Below, one piece after another: positions 2,019-57,087 of a DNA stretch of 64,000 bases; positions within the stretch are counted from its first letter, which is position 1; the number at the start of each line of letters is the position of its first letter. The position numbers and the translations under genes are program-made. The notes under the pieces are model-generated. The model was not told the origin of the DNA and ran no database searches. It saw nothing but the letters and a program-made list of their open reading frames with translations. This DNA is from Rugalucina vietnamica (lineage: Eukaryota > Mollusca > Bivalvia > Lucinida > Lucinidae), in NCBI GenBank assembly GCA_964017185.1, contig OZ024869.1:65701431-65765430 (forward strand), written 5' to 3'.

Positions 2019-2243
2019 CGGCTCCCGTCGCCGAGCGGTTAAGGGCGCTGTTTCTTAGTCACTCGATTATTTCACCGCTGTGTCTGGTGTGGGTTCGAGC
2101 CCCGCACTGGACACACGTGAGACAAGCCAAGTTCAGCTTGGGTGTGTCAGGTGATTTTTCTCGGGGTTCTCCCGTTTTGTCCACCTACTGATTGACCGGT
2201 TTCATATGAGCTGAAATAATCTTGAAAGGAACGTAAAACTGAA
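2019..2243 (+). mobile_element. tRNA-derived SINE
   Basis: The head reads like a tRNA gene with a long variable arm. A box-A-like GTCGCCGAGCGGTTAAGG is followed about 55 nt later by a box-B-like GGTTCGAGCCCC, the two internal RNA polymerase III promoter elements. The body contains CACACGTGAGACAAGCC, which has a diverged counterpart on the minus strand near 34.4 kb. It ends in AAGGAACGTAAAACTGAAT, similar to mollusc SINE 3' ends. The intervening sequence is too long for a functional tRNA, so a SINE is the better reading. Target-site duplications are not clear. Confidence 0.75.
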
Positions 2244-2253
2244 TTATATATAT

Positions 2254-2357
2254 AGGGGAATTAAACCATGCATAACCGTTAACAGTGCAAGAACAAATCA
2301 AACTGAGCGCTTTAAAGCACTGTTAATGGTTTAATTGTTTAATGGTTTAATCCCCCT
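2254..2357. repeat. Imperfect inverted repeat
   Basis: The left arm GGGGAATTAAACCATG...TTAACAGTGC and the right arm GCACTGTTAATGG...TTTAATCCCCC are complementary. The right arm carries an extra TTTAATTGTTTAATGG duplication. It lies directly after the SINE and may be a small foldback element. Confidence 0.6.
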
Positions 2358-19366: not shown

Positions 19367-22300
19367 CTATTTGTTTATGGCACAATATATAAATTTATGA
19401 TCAGACCAATAAGCCTCGATAACATCACAAAATCCTTCAGAGTTTGAAAATATCAAATCTAGTACTGAGCCAGAGTCAGTCGTACATTGGTTGATTTTCT
19501 GCATACACCCAAACAATGTCTCCACAAAGTCCACAAATCCTGTATTTGCACCATCTATCTGTATGTTGAAGTCCCCTAAGATGACTAATTTGGCATGCAG
19601 ATCAACAGCTGGCCTAAGATGAGAAATAATATCCTTTCGAAAATCAGCTTGTAAACTTTTTGGGTATTTGTACAACACAACAACTTGAATATACCCTCTC
19701 TGAATGCTGAATATGCCAACAAATATGAATTCAAATGACTTGCATTGCAACTTTACAACCTTTTGAATTTGAAAATATTCCTTCACATATAATACAAGTC
19801 CATGATACGGCCTGCTCACTGATTTTTTTCCTGTGTCATCAAGTCTAATAAGTCTGAATCGTTTCAGACCAAAATGTACATTTTCATCCCTTCTACATAA
19901 CCTTGTTTCAGCGAATCCCATGACATCTGCTGCCAACACATTTGGTTCAAATTCAACATCCTTAAAATGTTTATGCAAGGATCTAGCATTGTTGAATGCT
20001 ATTTTGGTTTTGCCAGGATCAATTTTATACAATGGAACATAACACAACTCTAAACAAGCTTCTGTCCGTAGCCTTTCCATCTCAATATTCACCTGATCAT
20101 CTATAGCCATAGTATCTTCATTCATGTTTAATATATATAAATCGTCAAGCTTTTTCACTCTACTGAATGCAACATAATGCATATGTGGCATTATGTACTT
20201 TCTGTCCTTCCCATTTTTGTCCTTCCCCTGGGATAAATCAACAACTACCCTGTCTACTGTTGCACCTTCAGCTTTGTAGACTGTTTTACCTGAAGCTGGT
20301 GTCACTGGGAATTGGCTTCTCTGAAATGTTTTGTAGCTATGTATAAATGTCCGTTGTATTTCAAATACAGGCGTCCAGTTCGGATGAATGCTTGAGTTGT
20401 AGAATTTTCTGTTTTTCTCTCGTGTTGCCCTACCAACTCGAGGGTCATCAAACAATATCCAAATGATGCTTGGACGATTTGTTCCTTCCATCCACCTGAA
20501 GTCAATGTGTTTCACCACACCTGTAGCACCATTGGTTAAACCGTCTTCTACATCTACATTTGCTGTATGAACAACAATCATTCCTTCAACAACTGTCAAT
20601 GATTTCATTAATTGGCCTGTTTTCCCATACTCTTTTGGGAGCCCAGCAATTAAGGACTGGCATCTTTTAGCCGGAATATTTTGAGTGACAACAATATCAT
20701 GGCATGGTATTACGATCTTTTCTCCTGGCAATTGACTCAAAATAGTGTCATTGTGCTGGTCTACAAAACAATTCTCAGCAAACAAATGAAGGGCGTCCTT
20801 TGGATAGTCACCACGGTCAACAACACGTGTTTGCAATTTTTGTTTGTCTTCCTCTGTCATTTCATTCAACCTAAGTCGGTTTAACAGCTGTGCAAATGCA
20901 AGATCATCTTTCTGCCTCATGATATCAACCAATTCATACATTGTAAAGAGCTCTTTCCATAAGTTTCTTCCTAGTGAAGATGCTCCCTCTGCCAAATCAA
21001 GACTTATAAAGAAATCACCTATTGGCTTAAGTTGGTAAAGATCCCCAACAGCAATAACACTTAAACCACCAAACACTTCTTTAGTTCCCATCAGCTGCTG
21101 TAAGCGAGTGTTGATGAAGTTTAATGTCTTGTTGCCTACCATTGATATTTCATCAATAATCACAACTTTCAGATGTCTGTACTTAATTCTGAATGTATTC
21201 AACTCATCAGCTGAAAGGTGATTGGTGTTCTTTTGAAACATTTTTCTGTGGAAAGCAGAGCAAATAGTTTGTCCACTAATATTAAAAGCAGCAAAGCCCA
21301 TGTAAGCGCACAACAGAATCCTTTTATCATCTGGATTTTCTCCCTCTTTCAAATTCAAAATCCTATACAGACTTTGATAAAGTGCTCGAATGACTACTGA
21401 TTTGCCAACACCTGCCCCTCCTGTTAAGAAAGCATAGACTGGTTCATCTTTGCACTTAATCCAGTGCACAATATGGTTAAAGAATTCTCTTTGTCTCAAA
21501 TTAAGACTTCGAAGTAGTTGTAAGTATTCTTCTTCGGGCAATAAGATGGCACTGGTTTCTACTGGGGGCACTGAGCAAGTCGACTGCAGTTCTATTCCAA
21601 TATCATAATGTCTCTGCTCTACAACTCTGCTTGGGTTAAAACAAACAAATTTTTCTGATTCCCCTGGTGTTTCTTCTTCTGCCTCCCGATTTTCTTGCTC
21701 TGCATTCGGTGCAATTTGATCAAAGTCCCTTTCTTCAGCTTCCATCATCTGCCTTGCAAGCTCTAGTTCTTCTGCATGATGCTCGTACTCATTTCTTTTG
21801 GGTATCAATGATATCTGTACAGAGTTATAATGAGCCTCATATGTGTCAAAAGAACCTAGCAAATCTTTTTGTTCATTTCGCCAAGGTACAAAAAGCATAA
21901 GCTGCTCTCTGAAGTAATTTTCTGGGTCCTTTTTCTTGTTGTATTTTACATACCTTATTATTCTAGGTACTTCTCTTGTTTTGTATTTTGTTCCATTTTT
22001 TGCTTTGAACAGCAAATCTGAACTTTGACTTTTACTGTCATCCAAACAGTCATCAGCTTCATCCTCAGAGCTATTGACAAAACTGTCATCATCATTAATG
22101 TCATCAACTTTCTCTGGGAGCTTATTTCCTTTTGGATAAATAATGTCAATCTTTGAGACATAATCAGCTAGGCAAAACTTTCCAAGCTGCCTGGGTCTTT
22201 TAGAGTACCTCTGTATTAAATTTTCCGATTCTACATCTGTAGATTCAGCAGGAAGTTCATCAAGAGCAGCTTTTGACTTTAGCAGAAAGATTCTTTCTTC

Positions 22301-25300
22301 TGGTATAGATGTATTGATGAAAACTATATCCCTTGTGCATTTTGTCAAAGGAATTTGCAGATCAAGATAAACAGCCTCTTGAGCACTAACCTCCACACAG
22401 TTTGAAAATACATTTCCAATATGCCTGACTTGTTTCTTCAGGTCCAGATTTCCTCTTCTAGCCTCTTTTGCTGCTGCATCGAGTTGTGCACTCATACCTC
22501 TTTGTGACTTACTTATATAACCAACTATATATGAAGCACACCCATATGGTTCAAGAACAATCTGAATGTCAAGGTTGGCTTTCCAAGCTACAAGTGTGTT
22601 TTCATTAAATGGATTTATCCTCATTTCCTTTGTTTTGCGTTTTAAGAAAACCTTTGGAGTTTTCAAGGAGCTTCTGATGCAACAAATGTAGTCTCCAAAG
22701 TCCATTTTAGCATTTTTTTCTAGAAACTCCTCAAATGACATATCTTCATTTTCATTACACTCTGTCATTGCTTTTTGTAGCTCTGCATTCTTCTTTTTGT
22801 ACTTTTCAACATTTTCTTCAAGCGGATGTAGCAACATAGTCCTCGGCAATGGTGGCAATGGAAATCCAAACCTACATACTGGTTTTCCCTTTTTTCTGCA
22901 GGTTCTAGAATGTTTGTGACTTTGAAGGTTTATCAGATTTGCTGTTTTCTCATTTTCAATACTGCAAGTAAGGTACCGATCAACAAACTGAACTATTTCC
23001 TCTTCAGAGTTTGTTTCTAAAGTTGGAGCATTTTCTACCCAAACAAGCATATGAATATGAGGTGAGCCACGCTGCTGAAACTCAACTCTATAAAAATAGT
23101 CACGCACATTTCCAATTGGCTGACAACTGCTTTTTAGAATTGTATTTAGGAACTCTTGTACCCTATGATCAAAGTACCTTGAACATGTAACTGGGTCTTT
23201 CTGGACAAGCTTTGTTTTCTCTTGCCAAGTTAGCTTTTCTATTTCATTTTCAGAATATTCAATGCCATCATTCAATTTTGCTAACATTCTCAACAGATCT
23301 GTCCACCTAGTATCAGCAGCTGACAATGACATAAACCAAGTGGGCAAGGAAAGTTGTCTAATCATTGCAAAAATGTCTTTCTTGCGCATTTCCAAATAGG
23401 CTGGTGAATTTCGCAGCTGGCGAAATATATAATAGCCTTCATCAAGATTTACAAGTTTGTCCAAATAATTTGAATCTCTAGCTTCGGCTGCTGTAATTCT
23501 TTGACCTCTCCTTTTACACCTTCTAACAGCTAAGTTGACTTTGTCACTGATTTGTTTCATCTGTAGCTTTTTATGTTTAAAGAATATGTTAGGAACTGAC
23601 TGTGCAGCTCTCCTGTCAGCACTTCGCAATTCCCACTTTACAATGTCACTATAGTGAACTGGCACTAACCTTTCATCATTGCTAGGTGGTTTCTGGCCAC
23701 AAAATATTGTTGGAAAGCATAAATACTCTGCATCTTTATCTTGATATAGGCTTAACGGATGTTGTCCTTCACCTGGGGCAAAAGTGAACACTTTATCGTA
23801 TTTATTGTCAATATCAGCTTCATCCACTAATGTATCTATATTTCCAACATGATCATTGGCATCTATCTCACTGTAATGATCAGAATCATAGCCATTAGAT
23901 ACTTCAGGGACATCTTCACTACTCATATCTTGTTCCTGCTTTTCATTTTCTGTATCATTTCTATCTCTGGATCCTTCATTTGACACTTCCAAAAATTCTC
24001 TGACTGTATCTTCTGCACTTTCAGTAACTTCCTGAAACCAACTATCATTAAGTACAATGCCAGATCTTTTATATAGTTCGCTATTGCTCATAAGCCAATG
24101 TAAAGCAGACAAAACTCTTAGTGGTCTTACACTTTCTTTGAAATCCACTTTTTTATAAGACAACTTCTTTTTCAACTGAATGGCAACTGTAAAATTTTCA
24201 TCCATTGGTCTTGGAAGACTGTTTATAGTAGGTTGAATATCAACAGGCACGTTAATAACATTTCCTTTCAGGGAGTACTGGCCACCACGTGGTAATTCTC
24301 TAATCTGCATAAATGGGATACGCAAAGCTATTAATCTTTCTTCCAGTTGATGTAAATTTAGCTCTAGGGGTTTGTCTGGCCATTTCATGCCATTAGCAAC
24401 TGATAGTTTTGGAATCTTACTATCTCTTAATGCACTCAAGCATGTATGACAAATCCATTCTTCATTGCTGACTGATTTAAAATCAGTACAATACAATCTT
24501 TTACTTTCTTCTGGAATATGTGTGTTTTTTAACATAGAAACGCTTTTCCTGAACCACGTCTGGTGACAACATGAACAAACATATAAAGGTCCAATAGAAA
24601 TATCTGAATGAAATTGTTTTATACTCTCCTCAATAGTTTTAAAGTTTTTCTTGTGAGAGCTTGACAAAGTATCTGTGTCATGCTTATGTTTTTTACTAGG
24701 AATCCTCATTCCAGAATGATCATCCATTTTTCTCTTTTCATGTCTTACATGTTGCTTCTTGATTCTCTCACATTCACGGACATAAGGATTCTCTCTTGCC
24801 TTCTTTTTTGATGCATTTTGGTATTGTTTCTCCTGTTCTCTAAAAGCCTGGTTTTCTCTTGCAAACTGCTTTGATTCTCTCTCTCTTCTTTGAAATACAG
24901 GGTCTTTTCTTGCAGATTGCTTTGATTCTCTCTCTCTTCTTTGAAATACAGGATCTTTTCTTGCAGATTGTTTGGATATCTTCTGATACATGGTTTCTCT
25001 AGACTTGAATAAAGGATCTTTTCTTGCAGATTGTTTGGATATCTTCTGATGCATGGTTTCTCTAGACTTAAATAAAGGATCTTTTCTAACAGACTGCTTT
25101 GATTCTCTCTCTCTTCTTTGAAACACAGGATCTTTTCTTGCCGATTGTTTGGATATCTTCTGATACATGGTTTCTCTAGACTTAAATAAAGTATCTTTTC
25201 TAACAGACTGCTTTGATTCTCTCTCTCTTCTTTGAAACACAGGATCTTTTCTTGCCGATTGTTTGGATATCTTCTGATACATGGTTTCTCTAGACTTAAA

Positions 25301-27580
25301 TAAAGGATCTTTTCTAACAGACTGCTTTGATTCTCTCTCTCTTCTTCGAAACACAGGATCTTTTCTTGCCGATTGTTTGGATATCTTCTGATACATGGTT
25401 TCTCTAGACTTAAATAAAGGATCTTTTCTAACAGACTGCTTTGATTCTCTCTCTCTTCTTCGAAACACATGGTCTTTTCTTGCAGATTGTTTTGATTCCC
25501 TTTGATATATTATTTCATTTGCTTTAAAGGCTGAATTTTGTCTACATTTTTGTTTGTAACTTTTATAATACTCAGTGCGACACTTCTTTTTTTTGTTTGA
25601 GTCTTCAACTGTTGTTTTTGATGCATTGTTAGACATGTTTTTTATGTTTCGTTTTGCTTTGTAAGCTTGTCTCATTTTTTGATCATGGAAGTAAGCTTCC
25701 ATATTAGAATCCATTTGATCTTTAAAGCTCTCTGTATTTTCAAATTTCTTAACAATTATGGGCAAGAAGTCAAACTGTAAACTGGTATCTAGATTCAAAC
25801 TGTCATAGAATGCATACATGTATGTAACTAGGTCATTAATACTTGAGAAAGTTATCAAACAGGATGACCCATCACTTGATGAAAGTCCATTTTGTCCGTG
25901 AGAGTGGGAATCAAAAAACACATACATGCCATTCTTTCTAAATACAGCAGAGCATATTGCGCCAATAGTTAAAAGACCTGCTGATACAGACAAGAATGCT
26001 GATTGCAAAGTATCATGAAGGGTTGGCAAGCCAAGATTTTGATTATCAATAAGAGGACCACTTAGAATAGGCATTTTTTCACAAGTGAATTTTCCCATCT
26101 TTACTTCAAAATAATCTGGGATTTCCTCTAAACTCAACAGCTGATGAATAAATTTTCCACTTGATTTTAATCTTCTGATAACAGTTTGATACAGAGCATC
26201 ACCTTCACAAAGGACTTCATCTAATATCAAACTATTGTCTACATCATGACAAAGAGAGTATGACAACATACATAATGCATTACATGTGCACTGATATCCT
26301 CTTGATTGCTCAGAAAATCTGACATCATTTTGATGAAATCTTCCGAAGACCAAATCACTGGCATTCCACAACTGTTCTGATGATCTTACTGCCTGATAAC
26401 ATACCACATCATTGTCCAAGAATGGTTCTGATGAATCACTGTTAAAATGATGCTCAGCTGTAACATTATTATGCAGTGTATGCTGTTGGAGCATTGCATT
26501 TTTTGGACAAGCAGCTATATCCTCTGTGTCAAACATGTTTTCAACGACTCTTGGATGGTAATCAGCATCCACACCAGGAAAAGTATTCAGAAAGACTGTA
26601 TCAAAATCTGTCTGTACATTTGAGCTAACATTTTCTACAAGCTTGGTGATATCAATAACTAATTGCTTAAACTGATTGATATTAACTTTTTCACTCTCAA
26701 GAGAATTTGCAAATAAGGATTTATCTTCAGCTTCCAGCTTAGTACTACTCAAAGTATCAGACACAGGCTGAGATTCGGTATCAGTTAAAGATTCGATCAA
26801 AGTATCAGGTGTCTGTTCAACTTCAATCACTTTATGAAGCTTATGATCATTTACATTATTTTTCAGTGGTTTAATCAAATTCTCTAGCAAAGTCTCAGTA
26901 AATGTTTCAATCACTATATCAGTATTAGGCTCATTCAAAGGCTCAGGTAAAACATCAGGCAATTTCACAGAAATTTTCGGCGGCTCAATCAAATTCTCTG
27001 GCAAAGTTTCAGGCAATGTATCAATCACAATATCAGCATCAGGCTCAATAAAATTCTCAGGTAAAGTCTCAAGAGTTTTCAAAGTTTTCAAATTCTCTGG
27101 CAATATCTCAGACACAGATGGTTTTGTGGGCTGGGATAGACCCCCATCTGATAGATTCAAGACACCCATATCAATAGCATCAGGCTCAATAAAATTCTCA
27201 GGTAAAGTCTCAAGAGTTTTCAAAGTTTTCAAATTCTCTGGCAATATCTCAGACACAGATGGTTTTGTGGGCTGGGATAGACCCCCATCTGATAGATTCA
27301 AGACACCCATATCAATAGACACAGATGGTTTTGTGGGCTGGGATAGACCCCCATCTGATAGATTCAAGACACCCATATCAAAAGACACAGAAGGTTGTGT
27401 GGGCTGGGATGGACCCCCATCTGATAGTTTCTCATCAAAGAGGACACCCATATCAACAGACACAGATGGTTGTGTGGGCTGGGTCGGACCCCCATCTGAT
27501 AAAGTCATGACCCTCCTTTCCTTCTCATCTTCCAAAGTCTGACGTGCCTTGCTCATCTTCCAGTACTTTCTACGAGGCAT
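19367..27580 (-). CDS. Helentron-type Rep/helicase with protease-like and endonuclease domains
   Basis: A single 2,737-codon frame with no stop, about 1.5-2 times the length of a plain Helitron Rep-Hel. Domains in order, with rough residues: acidic/proline repeats (1-230); a cysteine-protease-like domain with GYQCTCNALC near 430 and FDSHSHGQNG near 558, resembling peptidase C76/OTU folds; a basic 38-residue tandem repeat (about 695-945); a CxxC...CxxC segment like DUF6570 (about 990-1110); the HUH Rep nuclease (GSPHIHMLVW near 1507, SYIVGYISK tyrosines about 130 residues later); and a PIF1/RecD helicase with Walker A GGAGVGKS near 2056, DEISMV, GDLYQL and YVAFSRV. The last 210 residues are an exonuclease-endonuclease-phosphatase domain (NARSL, ETRL, GDFN, SDHKF). 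Rep plus helicase plus this endonuclease is diagnostic of Helentrons, which transpose as rolling-circle elements by single-strand nicking and replicative unwinding in the nucleus. The intact frame suggests a young copy. The transposon termini were not located. Confidence 0.96.
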   Translation of the reverse strand: MPRRKYWKMSKARQTLEDEKERRVMTLSDGGPTQPTQPSVSVDMGVLFDEKLSDGGPSQPTQPSVSFDMGVLNLSDGGLSQPTKPSVSIDMGVLNLSDGGLSQPTKPSVSEILPENLKTLKTLETLPENFIEPDAIDMGVLNLSDGGLSQPTKPSVSEILPENLKTLKTLETLPENFIEPDADIVIDTLPETLPENLIEPPKISVKLPDVLPEPLNEPNTDIVIETFTETLLENLIKPLKNNVNDHKLHKVIEVEQTPDTLIESLTDTESQPVSDTLSSTKLEAEDKSLFANSLESEKVNINQFKQLVIDITKLVENVSSNVQTDFDTVFLNTFPGVDADYHPRVVENMFDTEDIAACPKNAMLQQHTLHNNVTAEHHFNSDSSEPFLDNDVVCYQAVRSSEQLWNASDLVFGRFHQNDVRFSEQSRGYQCTCNALCMLSYSLCHDVDNSLILDEVLCEGDALYQTVIRRLKSSGKFIHQLLSLEEIPDYFEVKMGKFTCEKMPILSGPLIDNQNLGLPTLHDTLQSAFLSVSAGLLTIGAICSAVFRKNGMYVFFDSHSHGQNGLSSSDGSSCLITFSSINDLVTYMYAFYDSLNLDTSLQFDFLPIIVKKFENTESFKDQMDSNMEAYFHDQKMRQAYKAKRNIKNMSNNASKTTVEDSNKKKKCRTEYYKSYKQKCRQNSAFKANEIIYQRESKQSARKDHVFRRRERESKQSVRKDPLFKSRETMYQKISKQSARKDPVFRRRERESKQSVRKDPLFKSRETMYQKISKQSARKDPVFQRRERESKQSVRKDTLFKSRETMYQKISKQSARKDPVFQRRERESKQSVRKDPLFKSRETMHQKISKQSARKDPLFKSRETMYQKISKQSARKDPVFQRRERESKQSARKDPVFQRRERESKQFARENQAFREQEKQYQNASKKKARENPYVRECERIKKQHVRHEKRKMDDHSGMRIPSKKHKHDTDTLSSSHKKNFKTIEESIKQFHSDISIGPLYVCSCCHQTWFRKSVSMLKNTHIPEESKRLYCTDFKSVSNEEWICHTCLSALRDSKIPKLSVANGMKWPDKPLELNLHQLEERLIALRIPFMQIRELPRGGQYSLKGNVINVPVDIQPTINSLPRPMDENFTVAIQLKKKLSYKKVDFKESVRPLRVLSALHWLMSNSELYKRSGIVLNDSWFQEVTESAEDTVREFLEVSNEGSRDRNDTENEKQEQDMSSEDVPEVSNGYDSDHYSEIDANDHVGNIDTLVDEADIDNKYDKVFTFAPGEGQHPLSLYQDKDAEYLCFPTIFCGQKPPSNDERLVPVHYSDIVKWELRSADRRAAQSVPNIFFKHKKLQMKQISDKVNLAVRRCKRRGQRITAAEARDSNYLDKLVNLDEGYYIFRQLRNSPAYLEMRKKDIFAMIRQLSLPTWFMSLSAADTRWTDLLRMLAKLNDGIEYSENEIEKLTWQEKTKLVQKDPVTCSRYFDHRVQEFLNTILKSSCQPIGNVRDYFYRVEFQQRGSPHIHMLVWVENAPTLETNSEEEIVQFVDRYLTCSIENEKTANLINLQSHKHSRTCRKKGKPVCRFGFPLPPLPRTMLLHPLEENVEKYKKKNAELQKAMTECNENEDMSFEEFLEKNAKMDFGDYICCIRSSLKTPKVFLKRKTKEMRINPFNENTLVAWKANLDIQIVLEPYGCASYIVGYISKSQRGMSAQLDAAAKEARRGNLDLKKQVRHIGNVFSNCVEVSAQEAVYLDLQIPLTKCTRDIVFINTSIPEERIFLLKSKAALDELPAESTDVESENLIQRYSKRPRQLGKFCLADYVSKIDIIYPKGNKLPEKVDDINDDDSFVNSSEDEADDCLDDSKSQSSDLLFKAKNGTKYKTREVPRIIRYVKYNKKKDPENYFREQLMLFVPWRNEQKDLLGSFDTYEAHYNSVQISLIPKRNEYEHHAEELELARQMMEAEERDFDQIAPNAEQENREAEEETPGESEKFVCFNPSRVVEQRHYDIGIELQSTCSVPPVETSAILLPEEEYLQLLRSLNLRQREFFNHIVHWIKCKDEPVYAFLTGGAGVGKSVVIRALYQSLYRILNLKEGENPDDKRILLCAYMGFAAFNISGQTICSAFHRKMFQKNTNHLSADELNTFRIKYRHLKVVIIDEISMVGNKTLNFINTRLQQLMGTKEVFGGLSVIAVGDLYQLKPIGDFFISLDLAEGASSLGRNLWKELFTMYELVDIMRQKDDLAFAQLLNRLRLNEMTEEDKQKLQTRVVDRGDYPKDALHLFAENCFVDQHNDTILSQLPGEKIVIPCHDIVVTQNIPAKRCQSLIAGLPKEYGKTGQLMKSLTVVEGMIVVHTANVDVEDGLTNGATGVVKHIDFRWMEGTNRPSIIWILFDDPRVGRATREKNRKFYNSSIHPNWTPVFEIQRTFIHSYKTFQRSQFPVTPASGKTVYKAEGATVDRVVVDLSQGKDKNGKDRKYIMPHMHYVAFSRVKKLDDLYILNMNEDTMAIDDQVNIEMERLRTEACLELCYVPLYKIDPGKTKIAFNNARSLHKHFKDVEFEPNVLAADVMGFAETRLCRRDENVHFGLKRFRLIRLDDTGKKSVSRPYHGLVLYVKEYFQIQKVVKLQCKSFEFIFVGIFSIQRGYIQVVVLYKYPKSLQADFRKDIISHLRPAVDLHAKLVILGDFNIQIDGANTGFVDFVETLFGCMQKINQCTTDSGSVLDLIFSNSEGFCDVIEAYWSDHKFIYCAINK
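24870..25490 (-). repeat. 114-bp in-frame tandem repeat array in the Helentron gene
   Basis: About five to six head-to-tail units of 114 bp encode a 38-residue module rich in KQSARKDP and KQSVRKDPLFKSRE sequence. Neighbouring units differ by only one to a few bases, so the array expanded or was homogenised recently. A few half-units are missing, consistent with unequal exchange. The encoded segment is strongly basic and probably unstructured or helical, between the protease-like and Rep parts. Confidence 0.9.
27037..27505 (-). repeat. N-terminal coding repeats, including a perfect 141-bp duplication
   Basis: Bases 27,037-27,177 and 27,178-27,318 read as near-perfect tandem copies of a 141-bp unit (47 codons). 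Further upstream in the gene a shorter unit encoding LSDGGxxQPTxPSVSxDMGVL occurs about five times in total. Repeat number is therefore likely to vary between copies or individuals. Confidence 0.9.
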
Positions 27581-28866: not shown

Positions 28867-31230
28867 CTAATTGGAGCAAAAGTCCTGCCTGGGGCAGATT
28901 GAGAGCCACCAATAATTTCAATTCCTGTATATGAATTCTTGAATGTTGCCCTACAGTGTAGCCTCCAATAAATTCTGTATGTAATTTGATCAAGAAGATT
29001 TTTGAATTTTTTGCACTAAAACATATATGTTGCCATGGCAACCAGAGTCCCAGTTCGATCTGACCAAAAGCAATATGCAACCTTTCCTACTGCCCAATGA
29101 CGCTGTGTTGATCCACCTACTGGCTTTGGAGATATTGAATTTTGAAGTGTTTTCTATAGTAAGTCTATGGAGACTATTGACCCCCGGGGCGTGGCCAAAT
29201 TTGACTCCAGGGGCATGATTGGCACAATTTATAATAAGGACTAACAAACATTGCTACATACAAAATATAGAAGCTTTGGGCCTTGTGGTTTCAGAGAAGA
29301 AGGTTTTTTTAGATTTGTCCCATTGTAAGTCTATGGAGACTATCGACCACCGGGGCCTGGCCAAATTTGACCCCAGGGGCATGGCTGGCATAATCTATGT
29401 AGGTAGAGGACCATTAGCTATTGCCATATACCAAATATCATAGCTGTAGGCCCTGTGGTTTCAGAGAAGAAGATTTTTGATTTCTTTCCATCAAAACATA
29501 TATGTTGCCATGGAAACCAGAGTTCCAGTCCGATCTGCCGAAAAACAATATGTAACACTTTCTATTGCACAGTGACGCTGTGTGTGTTCTTTGATCAAGA
29601 TCCGCCAACTGGCTTTGGAGGCAATGATGTTTGAATATTTTCCCATAGTAAGTCTATGGAGACTATCAACCCCCGGGGCATGGCCAAATTAGACCCCAGG
29701 GCCATGATTGGCACAATTTATAATGGGGACTACTAAACATTGCTACATACAAAATATTGTAGCTCTGGGCCTTGTGGTTTCAGAGAAGAAGATTTTTTTA
29801 GTTTTTCCTATTGTAAGTCTATGGAAACTATCCACCCCCGGGGCGTGGCCAAATTTGACCCCAGGGGCATGGCTGGCACAATTTATGTAGAGGACCATTA
29901 GCCATTGCCACATACCAAATATCAAAGCTGTGGGCCCTGTGGTTTCAGAGAAGAAGATTTTTTATTTTTTTTCCCATAGTAAGTCTATGGAGACTATCGA
30001 CCCCCCGGGGCGTGGCCAAATTTGACACCAGGGGCACGAATGGCACAATTTATGTAGAGGACCATTAGCCATTGCTACATACCAAATATCAAAGCTGTGG
30101 GCCTAGTGGTTTCAGAGAAGAAGATTTTTTTAGTTTTTACCATTGTAAGTCTATGGGACCTATCTGTTGCCATGGAAACCACAATTTTGATACAATCTGC
30201 TCCAAAACCTAATGCCATCAATCCCCCACCCCAATTATGGTTCACATTAAATTTGATGAAGATCGGCCTACTAGCTTCAGAAATATTCTTCTTTGAAATT
30301 GTGGACGGATTTTTGATTTCTTTCCATCAAAACATATATGTTGCCATGGAAACCAGAGTTCCAGTCCGATCTGCCGAAAAACAATATGTAACACTTTCTA
30401 TTGCACAGTGACGCTGTGTGTGTTATTTGATCAAGATCCGCCAACTGGCTTTGGAGGCAATGATGTTTGAATATTTTCCCATAGTAAGTCTATGGAGACT
30501 ATCAACCCCCGGGGCATGGCCAAATTAGACCCCAGGGCCATGATTGGCACAATTTGTAATGGGGACTACTAAACATTGCTACATACAAAATATTGTAGCT
30601 CTGGGCCTTGTGGTTTCAGAGAAGAAGATTTTTTTAGTTTTTCCTATTGTAAGTCTATGGAAACTATCCACCCCCGGGGCGTGGCCAAATTTGACCCCAG
30701 GGGCATGGCTGGCACAATTTATGTAGAGGACCATTAGCCATTGCCACAAACCAAATATCAAAGCTGTGGGCCCTGTGGTTTCAGAGAAGAAGATTTTTTA
30801 ATTTTTTTCCCACAGTAAGTCTATGGAGACTATCGACCCCCCGGGGCGTGGCCAAATTTGACCCCAGGGGCACGAATGGCACAATTTATGTAGAGGACCA
30901 TTAGCCATTGCTACATACCAAATATCAAAGCTGTGGGCCTAGTGGTTTCAGAGAAGAAGATTTTTTTAGTTTTTCCCATTGTAAGTCTATGGGACCTATC
31001 TGTTGCCATGGAAACCACAATTTTGATACAATCTGCTCCAAAACCTAATGCCATCAATCCCCCAACCCAATTATGGTTCACATTAAATTTGATGAAGATC
31101 GGCCTACTAGCTTCAGAAATATTCTTCTTTGAAATTGTGGACGGACGACGGACGACGGACGACGACGGACGACGGATGCCTGCCTATCCTATAAGCTCAC
31201 CTGTGAGCCTTCGGCTCAGGTGAGCTAAAA
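28867..31230 (+). mobile_element. Hairpin-ended repeat family, copy D
   Basis: The best preserved 3' end of the family: (GGACGAC)n, then CCTATAAGCTCACC, then the hairpin AGCTCACCTGTGAGCC-TTC-GGCTCAGGTGAGCT, then AAAAA. The body is built from repeated sub-blocks of about 165-200 bp, each with TAAGTCTATGGAGACTATC, CCCCGGGGCGTGGCCAAATT, CCCAGGGGCATG and GTGGTTTCAGAGAAGAAG. It has no coding capacity; the short open frames that recur are by-products of the repeats. Confidence 0.8.
29472..31143 (+). repeat. 836-bp tandem duplication inside copy D
   Basis: Bases 29,472-30,307 and 30,308-31,143 are near-identical direct copies with only a handful of substitutions. The junction joins GTGGACG to GATTTTTGATTTC, while the second copy continues from GTGGACGGA into the ACGG tract. 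The duplication is recent compared with the sub-block repetition. Confidence 0.9.
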
Positions 31231-32039: not shown

Positions 32040-32282
32040 CCCTATGGGAGACATCTTTTGCCATGGAAAGCGGAGTTGTGATCCTACCTGCACTGAAACC
32101 TTATGCAGGCAATCCCCCACCACAATGATGCTTTTGATAAAATTTATTGCGACTGGCCTAGTATCTCCGCGATATATTTGAAAGTGTGAACGCACAGACA
32201 GACGCACGAGTTGACGGACGCCCGCTCGAGTTTCATCCTATAAGCTCACCCATGTGAGCCTTCGACTCAGTTGAGCTTAAAT
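32040..32282 (+). mobile_element. Hairpin-ended repeat family, 3' fragment E
   Basis: Starts with TTGCCATGGAAA and TGCAGGCAATCCCCCACC, which match copy D. It ends with CCTATAAGCTCACC, TGTGAGCC and GGTTGAGCTT-like hairpin sequence. The hairpin is more decayed than in D. Confidence 0.7.
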
Positions 32283-33130: not shown

Positions 33131-33825
33131 TTGATGTACTGCATTTATTTCTGTTTCAAGACATGTCACTCCTTTGATATTTTGACCCGACCACATGATT
33201 AAAACCACTACTGACTATCAGTAGGGCACAACCGTTAAATCGATATATTATATCTAGAAGGAGATATGCCTAATTACCATATATTTCGAACGAAATATAC
33301 CCTATTATAATATATCTAAATTGACATATAATATGTCAATCTAAATATCATTATATATTTCGATCGAGATATATTTTTTCCTTCATCTGAACACGTGATC
33401 ATTTTGCGTAATGCGCAGTCTCTCATCGAGTTTCGCATAGCGCGAAGGTTTGAATTTTGTGCAGAAACAAATTTCCAACAAAAAATCCAGCGTCATCGAA
33501 AAGTTCACCAGGGAAGTTATGTACAGTTTGGATTTGAATATACTCGTCGTCCGATTTACATGAGTCAACACTATTTTACTTGCTCAACATAACGACATAA
33601 AGCACTAGAGAAGCTCCAAGAAGTGTTAATTATATCTAAAATGTTTGGACTGGTTAGATTATATGACTTAACGTCCATATCAGCAATTTTACAGTCATAT
33701 TGGGAAGGAGCCAACGCTTTCTGTATGTAAACCAGAAGTCAAGGGAGCTTAAAATTTTGCCCAATGGCTTTTCACGACAAGATAACGTACGATCTCGCCG
33801 GGGACCTCTCTGTACGTAAATAAAT

Positions 33826-33900
33826 AATTCTTCTATTTCTTCTTCTTTTTCTTCTTTTTCTTCTTCTTCTTCTACTTCTTCTTCTTTTTCTTCTTCTTTC
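33826..33900. repeat. (TTC)n-rich low-complexity tract
   Basis: Imperfect TTCTTCTTT repeats. They give a spurious Glu/Lys-rich open frame on the minus strand. Confidence 0.9.
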
Positions 33901-34049
33901 AAAGAGTGACTCTACCACAATGCCAGGCAACAAGCATTTATCTCGATGAACAGACTGTTCAATGAGAGCGTGACTGCAAATGAAACCAGCGATCTCTCAA
34001 TGTTAACTAAACTAAACGGATAAGGGCGGCAAACCGATGCGACTTTGCC

Positions 34050-34312
34050 CATCCCCGCCCGTTGGGGCCGTGAGAAATAGATGGGCTGCCAGACAGAGCT
34101 TATAACTGAGTGATCGACCACACGATAACTGGTTAACCACTTAGGTCTGAAACTGCCTAGGAAAAGTTATAAGCTTTAGTTGTTGTGTGGTTATATGTCT
34201 TCAGCACGTATTTTTAAGCATATCACGACATCTAAATGTTGGGTAGAAGTCCCATTGAAAGGCAGTGACATCCCAATAAGACCATAGATGTTGACTCGAA
34301 CGTAAAGCAACA
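34050..34312 (+). mobile_element. Retroposon with GACGTAAA-type tail, copy 1
   Basis: Homologous to the copies at 34,640 and 35,790 but in the opposite orientation. It reads from CCCGCCC.TTGGGG and AAATAGATGGGCTGCC to CGTAAAGCAACACATTCAAAC. The tail matches the mollusc SINE-like 3' end. No coding capacity. Confidence 0.7.
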
Positions 34313-34329
34313 CATTCAAACAATAAACC

Positions 34330-34626
34330 TATATGATCGAATCCCGGGATCAAACAACATATTCACACTCGTCTCACAAATGCTCGGCGCGGGGCTCGAA
34401 TCAACACTGGCCAGAGCTGTACCATGATGCAACTCGGCAAGGGACAGTCAAACTCGGTTGCAGTTACGCTAAATGGCGATGGGTACATTATTTGCATGGC
34501 TCCTCGTCCTCCAGGGAGTTAATATGCCTTGCTCAAGGACAACACGGTGCTGCCAGTGCCACGGTGATCGATCCCATGACCTCTCGATTCGGATTCCCAT
34601 GCTTTACCACTACGTCACCACGCTCC
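34330..34626 (-). mobile_element. tRNA-derived SINE
   Basis: On the minus strand the head reads GTGGTGACGTAGTGGTAAAGC (box A) then TCATGGGATCGATCACC (box B), followed by TTGAGCAAGGCATATTAACT, a phrase found in many animal tRNA-SINEs. A second B-box-like GATTCGAGCCCCGC lies near its 3' end and resembles the SINE at 2.0 kb. It is wedged between copies 1 and 2 of the retroposon, which point toward it. Confidence 0.65.
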
Positions 34627-34639
34627 CTATTTGTTTTAT

Positions 34640-34946
34640 GTTTGTTTGTTTGTTTGTTTGTTTGTTTGTTTGAATTGGTGTTTAACGTCCCAGTCAAACG
34701 CTAATGGTCATGTCGGGACGCTGCCTCGAGTTGTGTGGGACTTTTACCAAAAATTAGGACGTCATGACATCCAATAAGGGCTTCGAATATAACCACCAAA
34801 CGAACCACTTTTCTGGGCAGGCTCAGACCAGAGCGGTTAACCAGTAATCAGATGGTCAGTCAGTAGCGAAGAAGCTTTGCTTGGAGGCACAGGCAGCCCA
34901 TCTATTTCTTTTAGGTCCCAATGGAAGGACAGTAAACGAGGTCTTA
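34640..34946 (-). mobile_element. Retroposon with GACGTTAAAC tail, copy 2
   Basis: On the minus strand it ends GGGACGTTAAACACCAATTC followed by (AAAC)n, seen as (GTTT)n at 34,640-34,671 on the plus strand. The body shares CGGTTAACCAGTAATCAG and GCAGCCCATCTATTTCTTT with copy 3. Its 5' part lacks a tRNA head. Confidence 0.75.
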
Positions 34947-34984
34947 ACACACAGGAAACGAGGAAAATATCTGACACACATTAG

Positions 34985-35778
34985 CATATAAGCCAAACGC
35001 GCGCCGGTTGTGTTGACAATAATGTAAAATTCAACATACGTCAGGAGCACATCGGAGGCACGTTAGAAACGCGTTACATGCGCGCTTTGTACGCTTGGTG
35101 TACGCCTCGGTGTACGTTGATAGGCCTATAGTATATGCATTTCACACGCCAGGTGATTGCTCATGACATAAATGCAACCATGAAAATGCGTTACATGTAG
35201 GGTATAATTATGACATCACATTAGGTCATTATATTTTTGTCATATTGACGTATTAACCATGAAAATACGTTACATGTAGGGTATAATTATGACATCACAT
35301 TAGGTCATTATATTTTTGTCATATTGACGTTGCATGAAGGTTATACGCCTGACGTCACTTTAGGTCATCATATTTTCGTCACACTGACGTAGTTATAACG
35401 TCGTACGACGTGACCACCATAATGTAACCCTAATGTGACGTCAACTTGACGTCATGTGCCTGCTGGGACGTCGCTGTAGGTCGGTGCGTACTCCACGCGG
35501 GAAGGGCTCAATAGGCTTTTTAAGCATGCTTAAAAATTTTCTTGAATCTCGGCGTGAATCGGTCGTGTGTCTAAGCTGGAAATCACCGTCACTCGGTTAG
35601 TACCATCTACAACAGATTAGCCAGTTAAATACGTTTCGAATAAGTTCCACGCGCGTTACAGGCGCGTTGAATACGCTTTGAACGCGTTTGGCGCATATTT
35701 TTAACAAATATTTGCTCAGTAACGTGCCCCAAGCGTGTATGAGACGCGCGTTTAACGTTTGCTGCGCGCCTATAGCAC
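34985..35778. repeat. GCGT-rich repeat (paired with 42,010-42,480)
   Basis: Contains many ACGCG/GCGTT motifs: GCGCGTT.AA.ACGCTTTGAACG, CCAAGCGTGTATGAGACGCG and CGCCTATAGC. These recur as AAGCTTTGAACGAGTTCGGC, CCAAGCGTGTAAGAGACGCG and CGCATATAGC at 42.2-42.4 kb. The family continues at 36,099 after the copy 3 insertion (CTGCGACGTAAC.....AACGTACT). Unidentified. Confidence 0.55.
35170..35460. repeat. 79-bp tandem repeat with TGACGTCA-like motifs
   Basis: Two near-identical 79-bp units start at about 35,178 and 35,257 (CCATGAAAAT.CGTTACATG). A third diverged unit follows from about 35,335. The array and its right flank contain at least five TGACGT or GACGTCA half/full palindromes, which resemble CREB/ATF sites. 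Regulatory use is not implied. Confidence 0.85.
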
Positions 35779-35789
35779 CTGCTTAGTGT

Positions 35790-36086
35790 TTGTTTGTTTG
35801 AATTGATGCTTTACGTCCCAGTCAACAGCTAAGGTCATGTCGGGACGTTGCCTCCACTTTATGGGACTTTTAACCAAAATGAGGATGTCAAGACATTCAA
35901 CAAGTGCTTAAAATATAACCATCCAACAAAGCCACACATGCTTATATGTGTGGACGGTTTGACTTGTAACCACTTTTCCTGGGAAAGCTAAGACCTGAGC
36001 GGTTAACCAGTAATCAGGTGGAACAAGCTTTGCCTGGAGGCCCAAGCAGCCCATCTATTTCTTTAAGTCCCAATGGGCGGGGTCTT
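35790..36086 (-). mobile_element. Retroposon with GACGTAAA tail, copy 3, with TSD
   Basis: Flanked on both sides by CCTGCTTAGTGT (35,778-35,789 and 36,087-36,098), a perfect 12-bp target-site duplication. It sits inside the GCGT-rich repeat, whose sequence resumes after the duplication. On the minus strand it ends GGGACGTAAAGCATCAATTC then CAAACAAACA. The long duplication and A-rich tail show LINE-type retrotransposition. Confidence 0.85.
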
Positions 36087-36121
36087 CCTGCTTAGTGTGT
36101 CTGCGACGTAACACAAAACGT

Positions 36122-36170
36122 ACTTTATTTTATTTTATTTTATTTATTTTTTTTTTTTTTTTTTTTTTTT
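36122..36170. repeat. T-rich tract
   Basis: (TTTTA)n followed by more than 20 T residues, within the GCGT-rich repeat. Confidence 0.9.
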
Positions 36171-36263
36171 GCGTTTTGAGATTTTCTTTTTTCATACGTC
36201 TGGCAGACGCTTTAGTCACGCGCTAATGTGTGACTGCTAAAACGAGTTTAAGAAACAAATTAT

Positions 36264-36765
36264 TTTTTAATATATTACTCAGTCTCAATATTTCGGCCAG
36301 ATGCCTTTTTCAAGAGAAAAACATTTAAACTTGCAGTTCTTTACATTTTAGCAGCCATTATAGTGTCACTTGTTTATGTTAAATGACGTGACGTCGTGGG
36401 CGACGTCGCGACGTCTTTTCCCTGTGCTATACAAACAATGACGTGGCCTTCGCTGTCCTGGAGAAAACCTTTGAGGCTGAAAGGACTGATCGTCAGCTTC
36501 GAGAAGGAATTTGGATCAAGAAGCTGGCATCTGTTAAACCCCATGGCTGCAATGTGAAAGACTCTTACCAGCAGTGTTTCAATGACGTTTTGGCGCTTTA
36601 ATACGGGAAAAGACGTCGCGACGTCGCCCACGACGTCACGTCATTTAACATAAACAAGTGACACTATAATGGCTGCTAAAATGTAAAGAACTGCAAGTTT
36701 AAATGTTTTTCTCTTGAAAAAGGCCTCTGGCCGAAATATTGAGACTGAGTAATATATTTAAAAAG
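36264..36765. repeat. Large inverted repeat, ~159-bp arms
   Basis: The left arm (36,264-36,422) and right arm (36,605-36,765) are near-perfect reverse complements, with one T/G substitution and a one-base indel noticed. The inner ends are GACGTGACGTCGTGGGCGAC...GACGTCTTTTCCC, themselves locally palindromic around GACGTCGCGACGTC. A 182-bp spacer carries the GIY-YIG-like coding scrap. It may be head-to-head terminal parts of a Penelope-like element. Confidence 0.9.
36407..36601 (+). pseudogene. GIY-YIG-like endonuclease fragment (Penelope-like candidate)
   Basis: A frame open from inside the left palindrome arm to TAA at 36,599-36,601 encodes about 60 residues including DVAFAVLEKTF and RQLREGIWIKKLASVKPHGC. 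The R..RE..WIKxL...P.GxN pattern is that of the C-terminal half of the GIY-YIG endonuclease fused to Penelope-like reverse transcriptases. The catalytic GIY...YIG part and the reverse transcriptase are absent. The match rests on one motif in a short peptide, so it needs a profile search. Confidence 0.45.
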
Positions 36766-37139
36766 TGTGTAATCCATTCCTTCAGGAATATATTTATAAG
36801 AATTATCAAATTATTTTTATACGTCCAAAATCTTCAGCGTGTTGAGAATTTTCATACACCCGGGGCGCGTTTGGGTTATACGCTTATCTGCAGGAAACCA
36901 CGGATTTATAAATTATAACGTTGTATCTCCCGAGACCGCCCGCTGCTTGCAAAATCATGCATTTGTATCAGACCGAGAAGAAAAGCTTATCTTGTGGCTC
37001 TAGTTCAACAAAGATAGTGGAAAATATATAAAACTGTTTGTACCACCCACTAAATTTATATTACTGACCGCTCCGATGCGGTACTTATGTTGTAGTCCTA
37101 CTTGTTTTATGTTTTGCTCCTTTTATCTACGTTTTCAAA

Positions 37140-37720
37140 GCGTTGTTGAATCGCAGATTCCACACGTGTGAAATCGGCGGCACTTAATCATAAAATCTGT
37201 GAATATCTGGTATTATTTTCATATGTGAAAAATTTGTACCAAATTTTCACATGCGGGACGAGTCAGTGTTTTGACGTGTGAAGAATTGGTTTGGATTCAT
37301 CACATCTTTGAAGAACTGGTATCAATTTTACTCAGATGTGAAAGCTTGGTACTTAATGTTCACATATAATGCTATAAATGGAACTAAAGGCAAAACCACT
37401 TCACATGGGTGGTTTTCGTGAGTGCGAAGAATACGTACATGAAATCTGATTACATGCGCCTATCTCACATGCGTGTGAAATGGAATGAAATTCGTTACAT
37501 ACCAATTTGTTACCAATTCTTCGCCGGCTGGGAGGATTTGGTACTAATAATTCACATAAGAACTTTGCGAAATGTGAAAATTGTGGTTCAAGAACGTGTT
37601 TTCGTGTTAGAAGATTTAGTACCGATTTGTGTCAATTCTACACATCTGGAAAAAAATCATACTAGTTCTTCACAGACGTTATATAAATTCGTACCGTCAG
37701 AAACAGAAAAAAAATACGAA
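37140..37720. repeat. Degenerate palindromic satellite (TTCACATGTGAA / TTGGTACCAA)
   Basis: Two palindromic words alternate at roughly 20-40 bp spacing: variants of TTCACATGTGAA and of AATTGGTACCAATT. Examples are TTCATATGTGAAAAATTTG, ACCAAATTTTCACATG, GTGTGAAGAATTGGT, AACTGGTATCAATTTTA and CAGATGTGAAAGCTTGGTAC. An open frame of 120 codons (37,409-37,771) lies across it but simply reads through the satellite, so I do not call it a gene. Related words reappear at 38,050-38,115. Confidence 0.65.
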
Positions 37721-38454
37721 AAGGCAATGATCAGGAAATGGGGCAATCAGAAAGAAATTCCCACTCCATAAACCGAGGGGTGGGAAAAACTAAAATGACA
37801 CTTAGGTACTTATTCCATGAAAATATGTCGTAAGGCGAGTGAGCAGCTATTCCCCAATAGGCGGCCACTCAGTTACCCGAACTGAACTAAAAATATGCAA
37901 AACGCACATAAGGCTCAAACAGCACAAAATTTCGACTCCAAAACACAAAACAACTAGAACCACAACAGAAGTATCGCCTTGGAACGATATTGAAGACATT
38001 TGAAGTTTTAGTATTAATTTCACCGCCTCCACCCCGCCATCGAAATTTAACATACACAAATGTCACACTTCCAAAATGTGCCTTGTTGGTACCTATTTTT
38101 ACACAAATGTGAAATTAAAAAAAAACGGTTCAGCAAGGCTATCATCCATGTCGAGAGCATCAACACGTTATTGGAATGGTGCTGGTACCGGTGAACCAAT
38201 TTCAATTTATGCTTCCTGCGTCTGGATGCCTCAACGTTTTGATATCCCGGAACATCTCTGACATATTGAAACGAGAGAAGGAAATATATAAGAATGATTG
38301 CTAAAAAGCAAGTAGGTCATGGACCAGCATTATTAACGGAGTGGGGACTTGTTAAACGATGACAAAGCTTCATACGATGAGATGGTTCATGTATCTTGGC
38401 GAGTTCTAGCACACTGGAGTTTTCAAAAATAAGCAACTCGATGATCGTGTTCGC

Positions 38455-38700
38455 GTGGCGGGGTAATACAGTCCTCTAAGGCACACAGCGGATAAGCTAA
38501 AGGCACTGTAAAAAAGGAGTCATGAGTTCGATCCCATCCTTCTCCACTCCTCCGGGTGAGACTTTAAGCCGAGGTCCCACGACAATCTTCCATGATAAAC
38601 AGATGACAAGGACGTATTGTGACGAGGCTACAGACTTTGTGACCTTTTGTTAAGTCCAAGGGACCTAGTCTTCAGACCTGACTGTCAGATAAAATCTGAA
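38455..38700 (+). mobile_element. Degenerate tRNA-derived SINE
   Basis: A box-A-like GGCGGGGTAATACAGTCCTCTAAGGC is followed by a box-B-like GAGTTCGATCCCATC and then by GGGTGAGACTTTAAGCCGAGG, a phrase typical of some invertebrate SINE central domains. The 3' end is not clear. Confidence 0.55.
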
Positions 38701-39029
38701 CACACGGAATCGTTTAAACACCAACAAGATGATATTTAAGATGTTTGTCCGTCGCCAGGTTGAACTAGGCCATGTTAGTTGCAGACTAAGTTGCGGGCAT
38801 ATTCCAATCCATAGTATATCTAAATCAACAAATTACGTATATCAGCTAGATAAGCCGCAATCCGTTTCACTTTGTCACCTAGCTCTACTTCCGCGTGGTG
38901 TGGAGAGTTATCAAGGAACACCGATGGGAACATCCTGACTACAAATTACGTATACATGTTGCTATGGGGCGAAAAATTTTGAAAATTTTTGTCAATTGAG
39001 ACATAATATGTCAAACGAAATATATATTT

Positions 39030-39340
39030 TAACCGGATGTAGAGCTGTATATCTCGAAGTAGATATTATATTTAAATTCGAATAGTTTGTGTTTATATCT
39101 AGATTTAGATATGATATCTAGTTTTAGATACTATATTAAAAAGGAGATATTTTGACAATATATGTCAGTTTAGATATAATATGTAAAACGAAGTATAGTT
39201 AAACCGGATGTAGAGTTATATATCTAGAAGGAGATACTATATGTAAATTCAAATATTTTGTGTTTATATCTAGATTTAGATATGATATCTAGTTTTAGAT
39301 ACTATATGAAAAAGGAAATATTATATATCAATTTAACGGT
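39030..39340. repeat. Right subterminal direct repeats of the 6.1-kb element
   Basis: Two direct copies of about 175-bp period start near 39,034 and 39,208. Each runs from AACCGGATGTAGAG through ATATCT.GAAG.AGATA, TTTGTGTTTATATCTAG and GATATGATATCTAGTTTTAG to TACTATAT.AAAAAGGA. The left end of the element has related but less regular ATATATTTCGA/ATATATCTAAA repeats. Subterminal repeats of this sort are often transposase-binding regions. Confidence 0.8.
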
Positions 39341-39789
39341 TGTGCCCTACTGACTATTGGATTATATGTAAAACGAGGGAGCGATATGATACGTTTGAGA
39401 GAGAATGGTATTCTCCTCAATAAATATGCATGTACTGTATGTTTGTAAGATATGTACTCTATAATTTGTCAGATATGTAAGGGGATGTTCATCCCCAACC
39501 CTCTGCTTATCATGGTACGCGGAGATTAAATGGAGGACCGCGACCTTTAAGTTGTTGAAAAAAAATAACTACTGACTCACAGACAACGATAGCAACAACT
39601 ACATGTATAATTGGTGTCTACATGCAAGTATTGAAAGTCTACGATCCGTGTGTATATTCGACTTTGATTTTTATCATCGTATTAATAAAGAAAATACGAA
39701 ACGTTTATGATCATGAATGCTGAAATTAGCTAGGGAAACGTTGGTACATGTATCCGTAATATTTGTCTGTTTGATGCATCGTTATATGT

Positions 39790-54953: not shown

Positions 54954-55691
54954 CTAAAATTTACTTAGAATATAGTAAATGAACCTACTTAATTGCTTCA
55001 ATAGTTTTACGTTTTTAACAGACATTAATTTTTCAAATTTAATTATATTAATATGGCGTTGATAATACTTAGGTAAGTAAATTGATCTAGTATCATTAAA
55101 GAAATCGCATTCAAACAGGTAGTGAAATTCATCGCCTACAACATTTCTAGTGCACAAAGTACAGACTCTTAAACGTCTGTTAATATCATCCCAGCGTCCC
55201 CTTTCGATAGGTAGTCTATGGTTCGCTGTACGAAATCTAGCAATTGGTATATAGAAATTTGGTTGAAGTTCAGTTAAATAAAACTCTGTTTTAAATTCTG
55301 TCTTGAATATTCTATAGTTACTGCATTTTGAGCTTTCAAAGACGGTTGTGTGCCACACCTGGACGTACTGCATTTGTAGACGCTCCTGAACTTCTTTACA
55401 AAGCCAATTTACATCGTTAACAACATTACTTAACCAAATATAATTTAGTCCAACATCTTGTAAAATCTTTTCTATACACAAAATCCATTTACATGAGTGA
55501 ATATTATTTCTATGCAAATACAACAGTAATAGATACATTTTAAATGATATTTTGCTATTCTTGCCAGTTAAAATCTTTGCCCAGAATTTTACCATTCTTA
55601 CTTTCACTTGTATAGACAAAGGAAAACGACCAAATTCTCCATAAACCATGACCAGTGGAGTATTACTTTTCATTTTTAATATGACGCGCAA
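54954..55691 (-). pseudogene. LINE ORF2 C-terminal part (frameshifted)
   Basis: This 245-codon frame continues ORF2 after the single-base shift. The coding sense changes frame inside the 7-nt homopolymer and overlaps the upstream segment. It contains MVYGEFGRFPLSI, the RFRTANHRLP block and a zinc-knuckle-like CTLC...GDEFHYLFEC, and ends at a natural-looking C-terminus shared with the 5.5-kb fragment. One base too many in the run would explain the break, whether a real mutation or a sequencing error. Confidence 0.88.
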
Positions 55692-57087
55692 AAAGTCGAG
55701 ATGAATTTTTTTCTAGTGGTTGTAATATTTCGAAACCAGTTACTTCGCTGCCATATAAAAGTATGGGCACAATTGTTTGATCAAAGAGTTTCATCTGGCA
55801 ATCAACTGGTAAGTGGAGATTGACAATTCGCTTTCGTAGAAGATGCATGGATTTATTTGCAAGTTTGGATACATTTTTGATATGTTGCACAAAGCGTCCG
55901 TTTTTAGTGAAAAGCACTCCGAGATATTTAAATTCTTTAGCGATTTCAATTTCTTCATCGTCAAATTTGAATGAAAAATGTTGATTTCCAATGCTACCGA
56001 ATATAATAATCTTCGTTTTGCTGATATTTATTTTCAATTTCCACTTTTTACAATATTCATTAAATGCTTTCAATATGTTTTGGAACTCCTTAGCATTATC
56101 GCTAAGAATTATTGTGTCATCTGCGTATAGTAATAAGAAAAGGATAATAAAGATAGTAAATTCGTCATTCTGTATATCAATTTCGATTCCTTTGCAGCCT
56201 GTTGTGTTCATATAATTTTCGAGGTCGTTTAAATAAATTGCAAATAATAAGGGTGACAGGTTTTCTCCCTGCCTGACGCCTTTGTCGCATGTAAAATAAC
56301 CTGACGAGTTTCCGTTAATAGTTATACAAGACTTTATTTCGCTATACATATTTCTTATAATATTAAAGATTTTGCCTTCTATTCCATGTTTTAATATTTT
56401 TTGCCAAAGACCAACTCTCCATATGTTATCGAAAGCCTTCGTAAAATCTACAAAACAACAAAATAAATTTTGTTTTTTACTTTTATAGTATTCAATTAAA
56501 CTATATAATGTCATAATGTTATCGACGGTCGAGTATTCTTTTCGGAAGCCACTCTGCGTTTCATTTAAAATTCTGTTGTCTTCTAAAAAGTTTGTTAATC
56601 TAGTGTTTATGATAGAGGTAAAAAGTTTACCAATACAGCTTAATAGTGTGATTGGTCGATAATTAGCTGGTTCGTTTTTACTGCCTTTATTTTTATATAT
56701 TGGTATTATATTGCCTTTGACCCAATCGCTAGGGATTATTCCATTTTGTAAAATCAAATTAAATATTTTTCTATATATAGGCACAAATGTGTGTTTAGTA
56801 GAGATTATATATTCGTTTAAGATATCGTCGACACCACTTGATTTATTAAGTTTAAGTGATTTAATTGCCGTGTTAATTTCCTTATCATGTATAGGGTCGT
56901 TAAGTGCGTCCTTTGATAGGCGGAATGCTTCGTTATATTCCGGATTTGGCGTTTCAATTAATATTTCCGGTGTACGTTCTTGTTCGGCTAAGGGGACATC
57001 ATTTGAGTTTAGTGACTTAAAATACTCAAACATATCATTCAAGGATATTGGTATTGTTTCATGCTTTTTTGTTAAGCTATTTATCAT
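55663..57087 (-). pseudogene. LINE reverse transcriptase (partial ORF2, N-terminal part)
   Basis: This 474-codon segment contains the non-LTR reverse transcriptase that copies LINE RNA into DNA at a nicked target. Visible motifs are PIYKNKGSKNEPANYRPITL (motif 1 region), LNETQSGFRKEYST, CFVDFTKAFDNIW with the first catalytic Asp, GVRQGENLSPLLFAIYLND, YADDTIIL with the catalytic YADD, and KTKIIIFG followed by FKYLGVLFTKNG. All core motifs are intact. The frame is open upstream of the listed Met to about 57,240, so that Met is not the real start. It ends prematurely at a frameshift in a 7-nt T run (plus strand 55,706-55,712). The clade was not assigned. Confidence 0.92.

Follow-up and report, generated by a model that had tools for sequence, protein, structure and literature searches.

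Within the hAT superfamily of DNA transposons, the hAT5 group is defined by a 5-bp target-site duplication (TSD; PMC12730594, citing Kapitonov and Jurka 2007). PMC10368747 describes Hermes as an element of ~3 kb that encodes transposase, makes 8-bp TSDs, prefers nTnnnnAn targets and needs end sequence other than its inverted repeats. Copies of the hAT element BuT2 that resemble miniature inverted-repeat transposable elements are non-autonomous, keep conserved ends and TSDs and are thought to be moved in trans, and according to PMC3942097 they are short and probably derive from internal deletion. Here we describe a single 6,134-bp mobile element at positions 33,219-39,352 of a 64,000-nt stretch of the Rugalucina vietnamica genome (contig OZ024869.1; this whole stretch is called the window), which we read, with a probability of about 0.85, as a member of a family of non-autonomous cut-and-paste DNA transposons whose ~5.45-kb body holds no recognised gene. 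Non-autonomous families are often short. This kind of element, with conserved ends and moved in trans, is already known, and what is unusual here is its length together with a shared body without recognised genes. The reading rests on fixed ends, a common interior, exact 5-bp TSDs, related unoccupied sites and low divergence within subfamilies.

The original prediction had placed an inverted repeat of ~36 bp at both ends, flanked by ACTAT, and AT-rich repeats just inside them, and all of these features were recovered. The inverted repeat is 36 nt long (33218-33253 and 39318-39353) and 94% complementary; because its outermost T/A pair belongs to the flanks, the element proper runs from 33219 to 39352. 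The inverted-repeat match thus delimits a left terminal repeat on the plus strand (33219-33253, CAGTAGGGCACAACCGTTAA...) and a right one on the minus strand (39318-39352). The element begins and ends with CAG...CTG and has A at position 5 of its end. ACTAT, to which no strand is assigned, flanks it on the left at 33214-33218 and on the right at 39353-39357. Content of guanine plus cytosine is 0.26 in the first 160 bp and 0.24 in the last 360 bp, compared to 0.41 in between, and this measure defines a left subterminal zone (33219-33378, plus strand), also distinguished by its divergence between subfamilies, and a right subterminal zone (38993-39352, minus strand), also distinguished by a 129-nt direct repeat (39023-39151 and 39194-39322, 91% alike) and by clustered ATATCTA/CTAGAT motifs. 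In another copy, L014, ATATCTA occurs 2 times in the left zone and 8 times in the right zone versus 2 times across the other 4,929 bp. The family resembles Hermes (PMC10368747) in that its two ends are unlike each other and a few hundred bp long, with short inverted repeats and clusters of subterminal repeats, and in its T/A-symmetrical target; it differs from Hermes in size, in TSD length and in having no recognised transposase.

Searching the 1.09-Gb genome for the exact 20-bp end returned 188 forward and 191 reverse matches (379 in all), and the reversed 20-mer, which served as a built-in control, returned none, indicating that the recurrence of this end is not due to chance. The places listed were the first 100 of the 379, all on contigs C1-C3. 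Among them, 78 formed 39 convergent pairs within 40 kb, 22 were unpaired, and no neighbours within 40 kb had any other orientation. Pair lengths ranged from 3,911 to 30,156 bp with a median of 5,522 bp. If C1-C3 are typical, the 61 elements found per 100 places extrapolate to some 230 elements genome-wide in which one or both ends are perfect. The many pairs at similar spacing that the original prediction had looked for were therefore present, with matching duplications, and the termini did not occur only as independent short elements, the shortest listed pair being 3,911 bp.

Each of the 39 listed pairs is flanked by a perfect 5-bp TSD, and the duplicated sequence differs from site to site. 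The TSDs follow the pattern nTWAn: 35 of the 39 have T as their second base and 27 of the 39 have A as their fourth, which is the symmetry (nT...An) of hAT-type targets. Several copies were inserted within other repeats, allowing unoccupied relatives of those repeats to be aligned across the junction; these sites are related repeat copies rather than alleles. In three of the eight alignments printed, the identical 5-mer was present once: TTCAA for L042 against window positions 2080-2256, CTTAT for L020 against window positions 32167-32275, and ATTAT for L022 against L006.

The pairs also enclose the same DNA. Using copy L014 (5,449 bp) as the alignment reference, one body of ~5.45 kb was found in all 36 pairs whose interiors were read (34 complete interiors and parts of a 22.9-kb and a 30-kb copy), the remaining three of the 39 being read at their ends only. 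Alignment of 25 elements shorter than 6,200 bp resolved five subfamilies of 13, 5, 3, 2 and 2 copies, whose mean internal Kimura two-parameter distances were 0.0128, 0.0105, 0.0118, 0.0060 and 0.0101, respectively, or about 1%. We read these as separate recent bursts of a young family. Divergence between subfamilies was 0-0.8% in the first 150 bp and 0.8-1.6% in the last 100 bp, compared to 1.6-13% (mostly 3-10%) elsewhere, and ends better conserved than the body would fit a transposase that depends on them.

No coding capacity for transposition was recognised in this body. Family scans with Pfam covered the window element and copy J38 (L038/L039). Translated in six frames, the window element had no Pfam match at cut-off and one below it (DUF1146, E 0.14), which agrees with the claim in the original prediction that the interior lacks a transposase. 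In J38, where 10 of 12 frames were scanned, DUF3915 scored 28.1 bits against a cut-off of 26.9, and this match overlies a tandem-repeat stretch in the extra DNA of that copy, outside the shared body. By frame length only, the longest stop-to-stop frame per copy was 119-160 amino acids in 21 copies, none exceeding 160. A 522-amino-acid frame in L031 extends from the body into a stretch absent from L014, and L044, a piece of the 30-kb copy, has a 1,523-amino-acid frame that we take to be retrotransposon-like. Rfam returned one sub-threshold microRNA match (E 0.041), which scored 25 bits where the cut-off is 115 and was taken as chance, and a search for transfer RNA genes found none.

These results suggest that the family is probably mobilised in trans by the enzyme of another element. 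A transposase supplied in this way would recognise the ~35-bp inverted ends together with the AT-rich subterminal repeats, would excise the whole body and would insert it at 5-bp nTWAn targets, leaving the target duplicated. The likeliest, rather than a demonstrated, source of this enzyme is the hAT5 group, an assignment we favor with some reservation because the 5-bp TSD matches hAT5 and the T/A target and the end anatomy match Hermes. CAG...CTG ends are a further likeness to hAT5. Unlike this family, in which no transposase is recognised or linked, hAT5 has been described on autonomous elements. With 150 of 199 candidates scored, at least 116 hAT dimerisation-domain matches were obtained in the same genome, and none of 14 control genomes matched.

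Several observations weigh against the reading of a hAT5-mobilised, non-autonomous family. No transposase was recognised, by Pfam in the window element or by frame length in 21 copies, and no hAT gene is tied to the family ends: of the 21 hAT matches on C1-C3, none comes closer than 136 kb to one of the 100 listed ends. At position 5, where the family end has A, G is found in many hAT ends. Target symmetry is imperfect, with T at TSD position 4 in 8 of 39, and five of the eight unoccupied-site alignments differ inside the 5-mer, one of them with a gap. A further pair, L050 on contig C11, which was found with a variant-end pattern, has no TSD and brings the total to 39 of 40; a recombinant would be its simplest account.

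Limited searches did not find the autonomous relative that the original prediction had hoped for. Ends with a changed base 30, 21 or 17 were present at 2, 3 and 7 places, respectively. Both base-30 places, when read, belonged to the same family, and one base-21 place was the end of family copy L042, the others lying at C2:25348588 and C5:4993058. All seven base-17 ends run into the family's left end, which makes them a further family variant rather than an autonomous partner. These seven (L059-L065) share 16 bp and carry the same substitution at the next base of the inverted repeat, position 17. Over 270-271 bp, L060 is 100% identical to L061-L063 and 99.6% identical to L059 and L064, and the changed end seems, from this near identity, to have spread. 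L065 is instead 99.6% identical to L014 (269/270), the position-17 change being the difference, so this change occurs on two subfamily backgrounds. Long pairs were also considered as autonomous elements, and J38 (9.8 kb), the 22.9-kb pair and the 30-kb pair, the last two read in part, proved to be family copies interrupted by other DNA.

The original prediction had offered, as the alternative to a large non-autonomous transposon, two solo ends of one family that happen to face each other. The 22 listed ends without an exact partner within 40 kb could be taken that way, but the two that were read (L005 and L008) enter the same interior as the pairs, and chance meeting of two unrelated solo ends or of two short elements of the same family does not produce 39 convergent pairs with exact, site-varying TSDs, one interior in the 36 pairs read and no neighbours in other orientations. 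We consider this explanation excluded for practical purposes and retain the large non-autonomous transposon in its place. A decayed autonomous element, its body being the remains of a transposase gene, would fit the length, since ~5.45 kb could hold a gene and its introns. This is improbable given the Pfam and frame-length results above and the position of the only J38 match outside the shared body; moreover, the copies are young, with about 1% divergence within subfamilies, so decay after spreading fails to explain the missing gene.

Other enzymes than hAT5 were also weighed. Transib ends start with CAC and Transib targets are GC-rich, whereas the family ends start with CAG and its target is the AT-rich nTWAn, which does not fit Transib. 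Another lineage of the CMCT clade would share features with the family, as PMC12730594 gives this clade CA..TG termini and 2-5-bp TSDs, and the TSD here is 5 bp. Taken together, a non-autonomous element of Transib or another CMCT-clade lineage is an unlikely but reasonable competitor. It is a long shot that the family is driven by something other than an ordinary hAT5 transposase and that the ~5.45-kb body was kept through several recent bursts because the body itself matters, whether by its size, structure or transcript; the transposase's own element would then no longer share these ends, or the superfamily would be an undescribed one.

As a non-autonomous family probably moved by a hAT5 enzyme, the elements differ from the short BuT2 copies (PMC3942097) in keeping a ~5.45-kb body in which no resemblance to a transposase was recognised. 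It follows from this body that ~5.5 kb of DNA is moved per jump. The body with which the family spread exceeds many autonomous elements in length and is partly built of captured dispersed repeats. The first 15 bases of the end had no match in the literature searched, a search that Repbase and Dfam lay outside. The hedged reading of the original prediction thus becomes a defined family with known ends, TSD length, target preference, body, subfamilies and young age, which will help to annotate the repeats of this genome and leaves the general view of transposons unchanged.

The original prediction had also described at least five nested or captured elements in the interior. One nested insert is real, but the nesting was otherwise over-read, as much of the repeat content is the family's shared body. 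The window element contains three copies of one dispersed repeat, which also exists on its own elsewhere in the genome, as it does around insertion L025. Compared to that free copy, internal copy 1 (34053-34323, minus strand) is 66% alike, copy 2 (34656-34924, plus strand) 70% and copy 3 (35787-36082, plus strand) 82%. Copies 2 and 3 are deleted in L027 and L032, the two shortest aligned copies, and copy 2 is partly deleted in L015. Much of this internal repeat content looks ancestral because it is common to other family copies, and we take the three repeats to be part of the ancestral body, as putative ancestral cargo. Copy L010 adjoins or sits in a tandem array with units of ~128 bp (L004 1521-3018).

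Two features are unique to the window element among the 25 aligned copies. One is a 79-bp tandem duplication (35176-35333, plus strand), of which the other 12 members of its subfamily have one unit; the stretch is deleted in the remaining aligned copies. The nested insert of 540 bp (36268-36807), absent from all 24 other aligned copies, is flanked by an 11-bp duplication, AAATTATTTTT, at 36257-36267 and 36808-36818, and none of these three features is assigned a strand. The insert has 160-bp inverted arms (36263-36422 and 36605-36764, 99% alike), and its central frame, which had no Pfam match, looks like the end of a Penelope-type endonuclease, making the insert a candidate Penelope-type fragment.

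Elsewhere in the window, positions 19367-27580 (minus strand) carry a single 2,737-amino-acid open frame that is in part tandemly repeated and has the domains Helitron_like_N, DUF6570 and PIF1 helicase, which is a predicted long uninterrupted Helitron-type gene. A 474-amino-acid frame at 55663-57087 (minus strand) has a reverse transcriptase domain (E 5.9e-43). Positions 28992-31044 form a repeated block with units ~165 bp apart, within which a 300-nt segment is duplicated at a spacing of 836 bp, the two copies being 99% alike.

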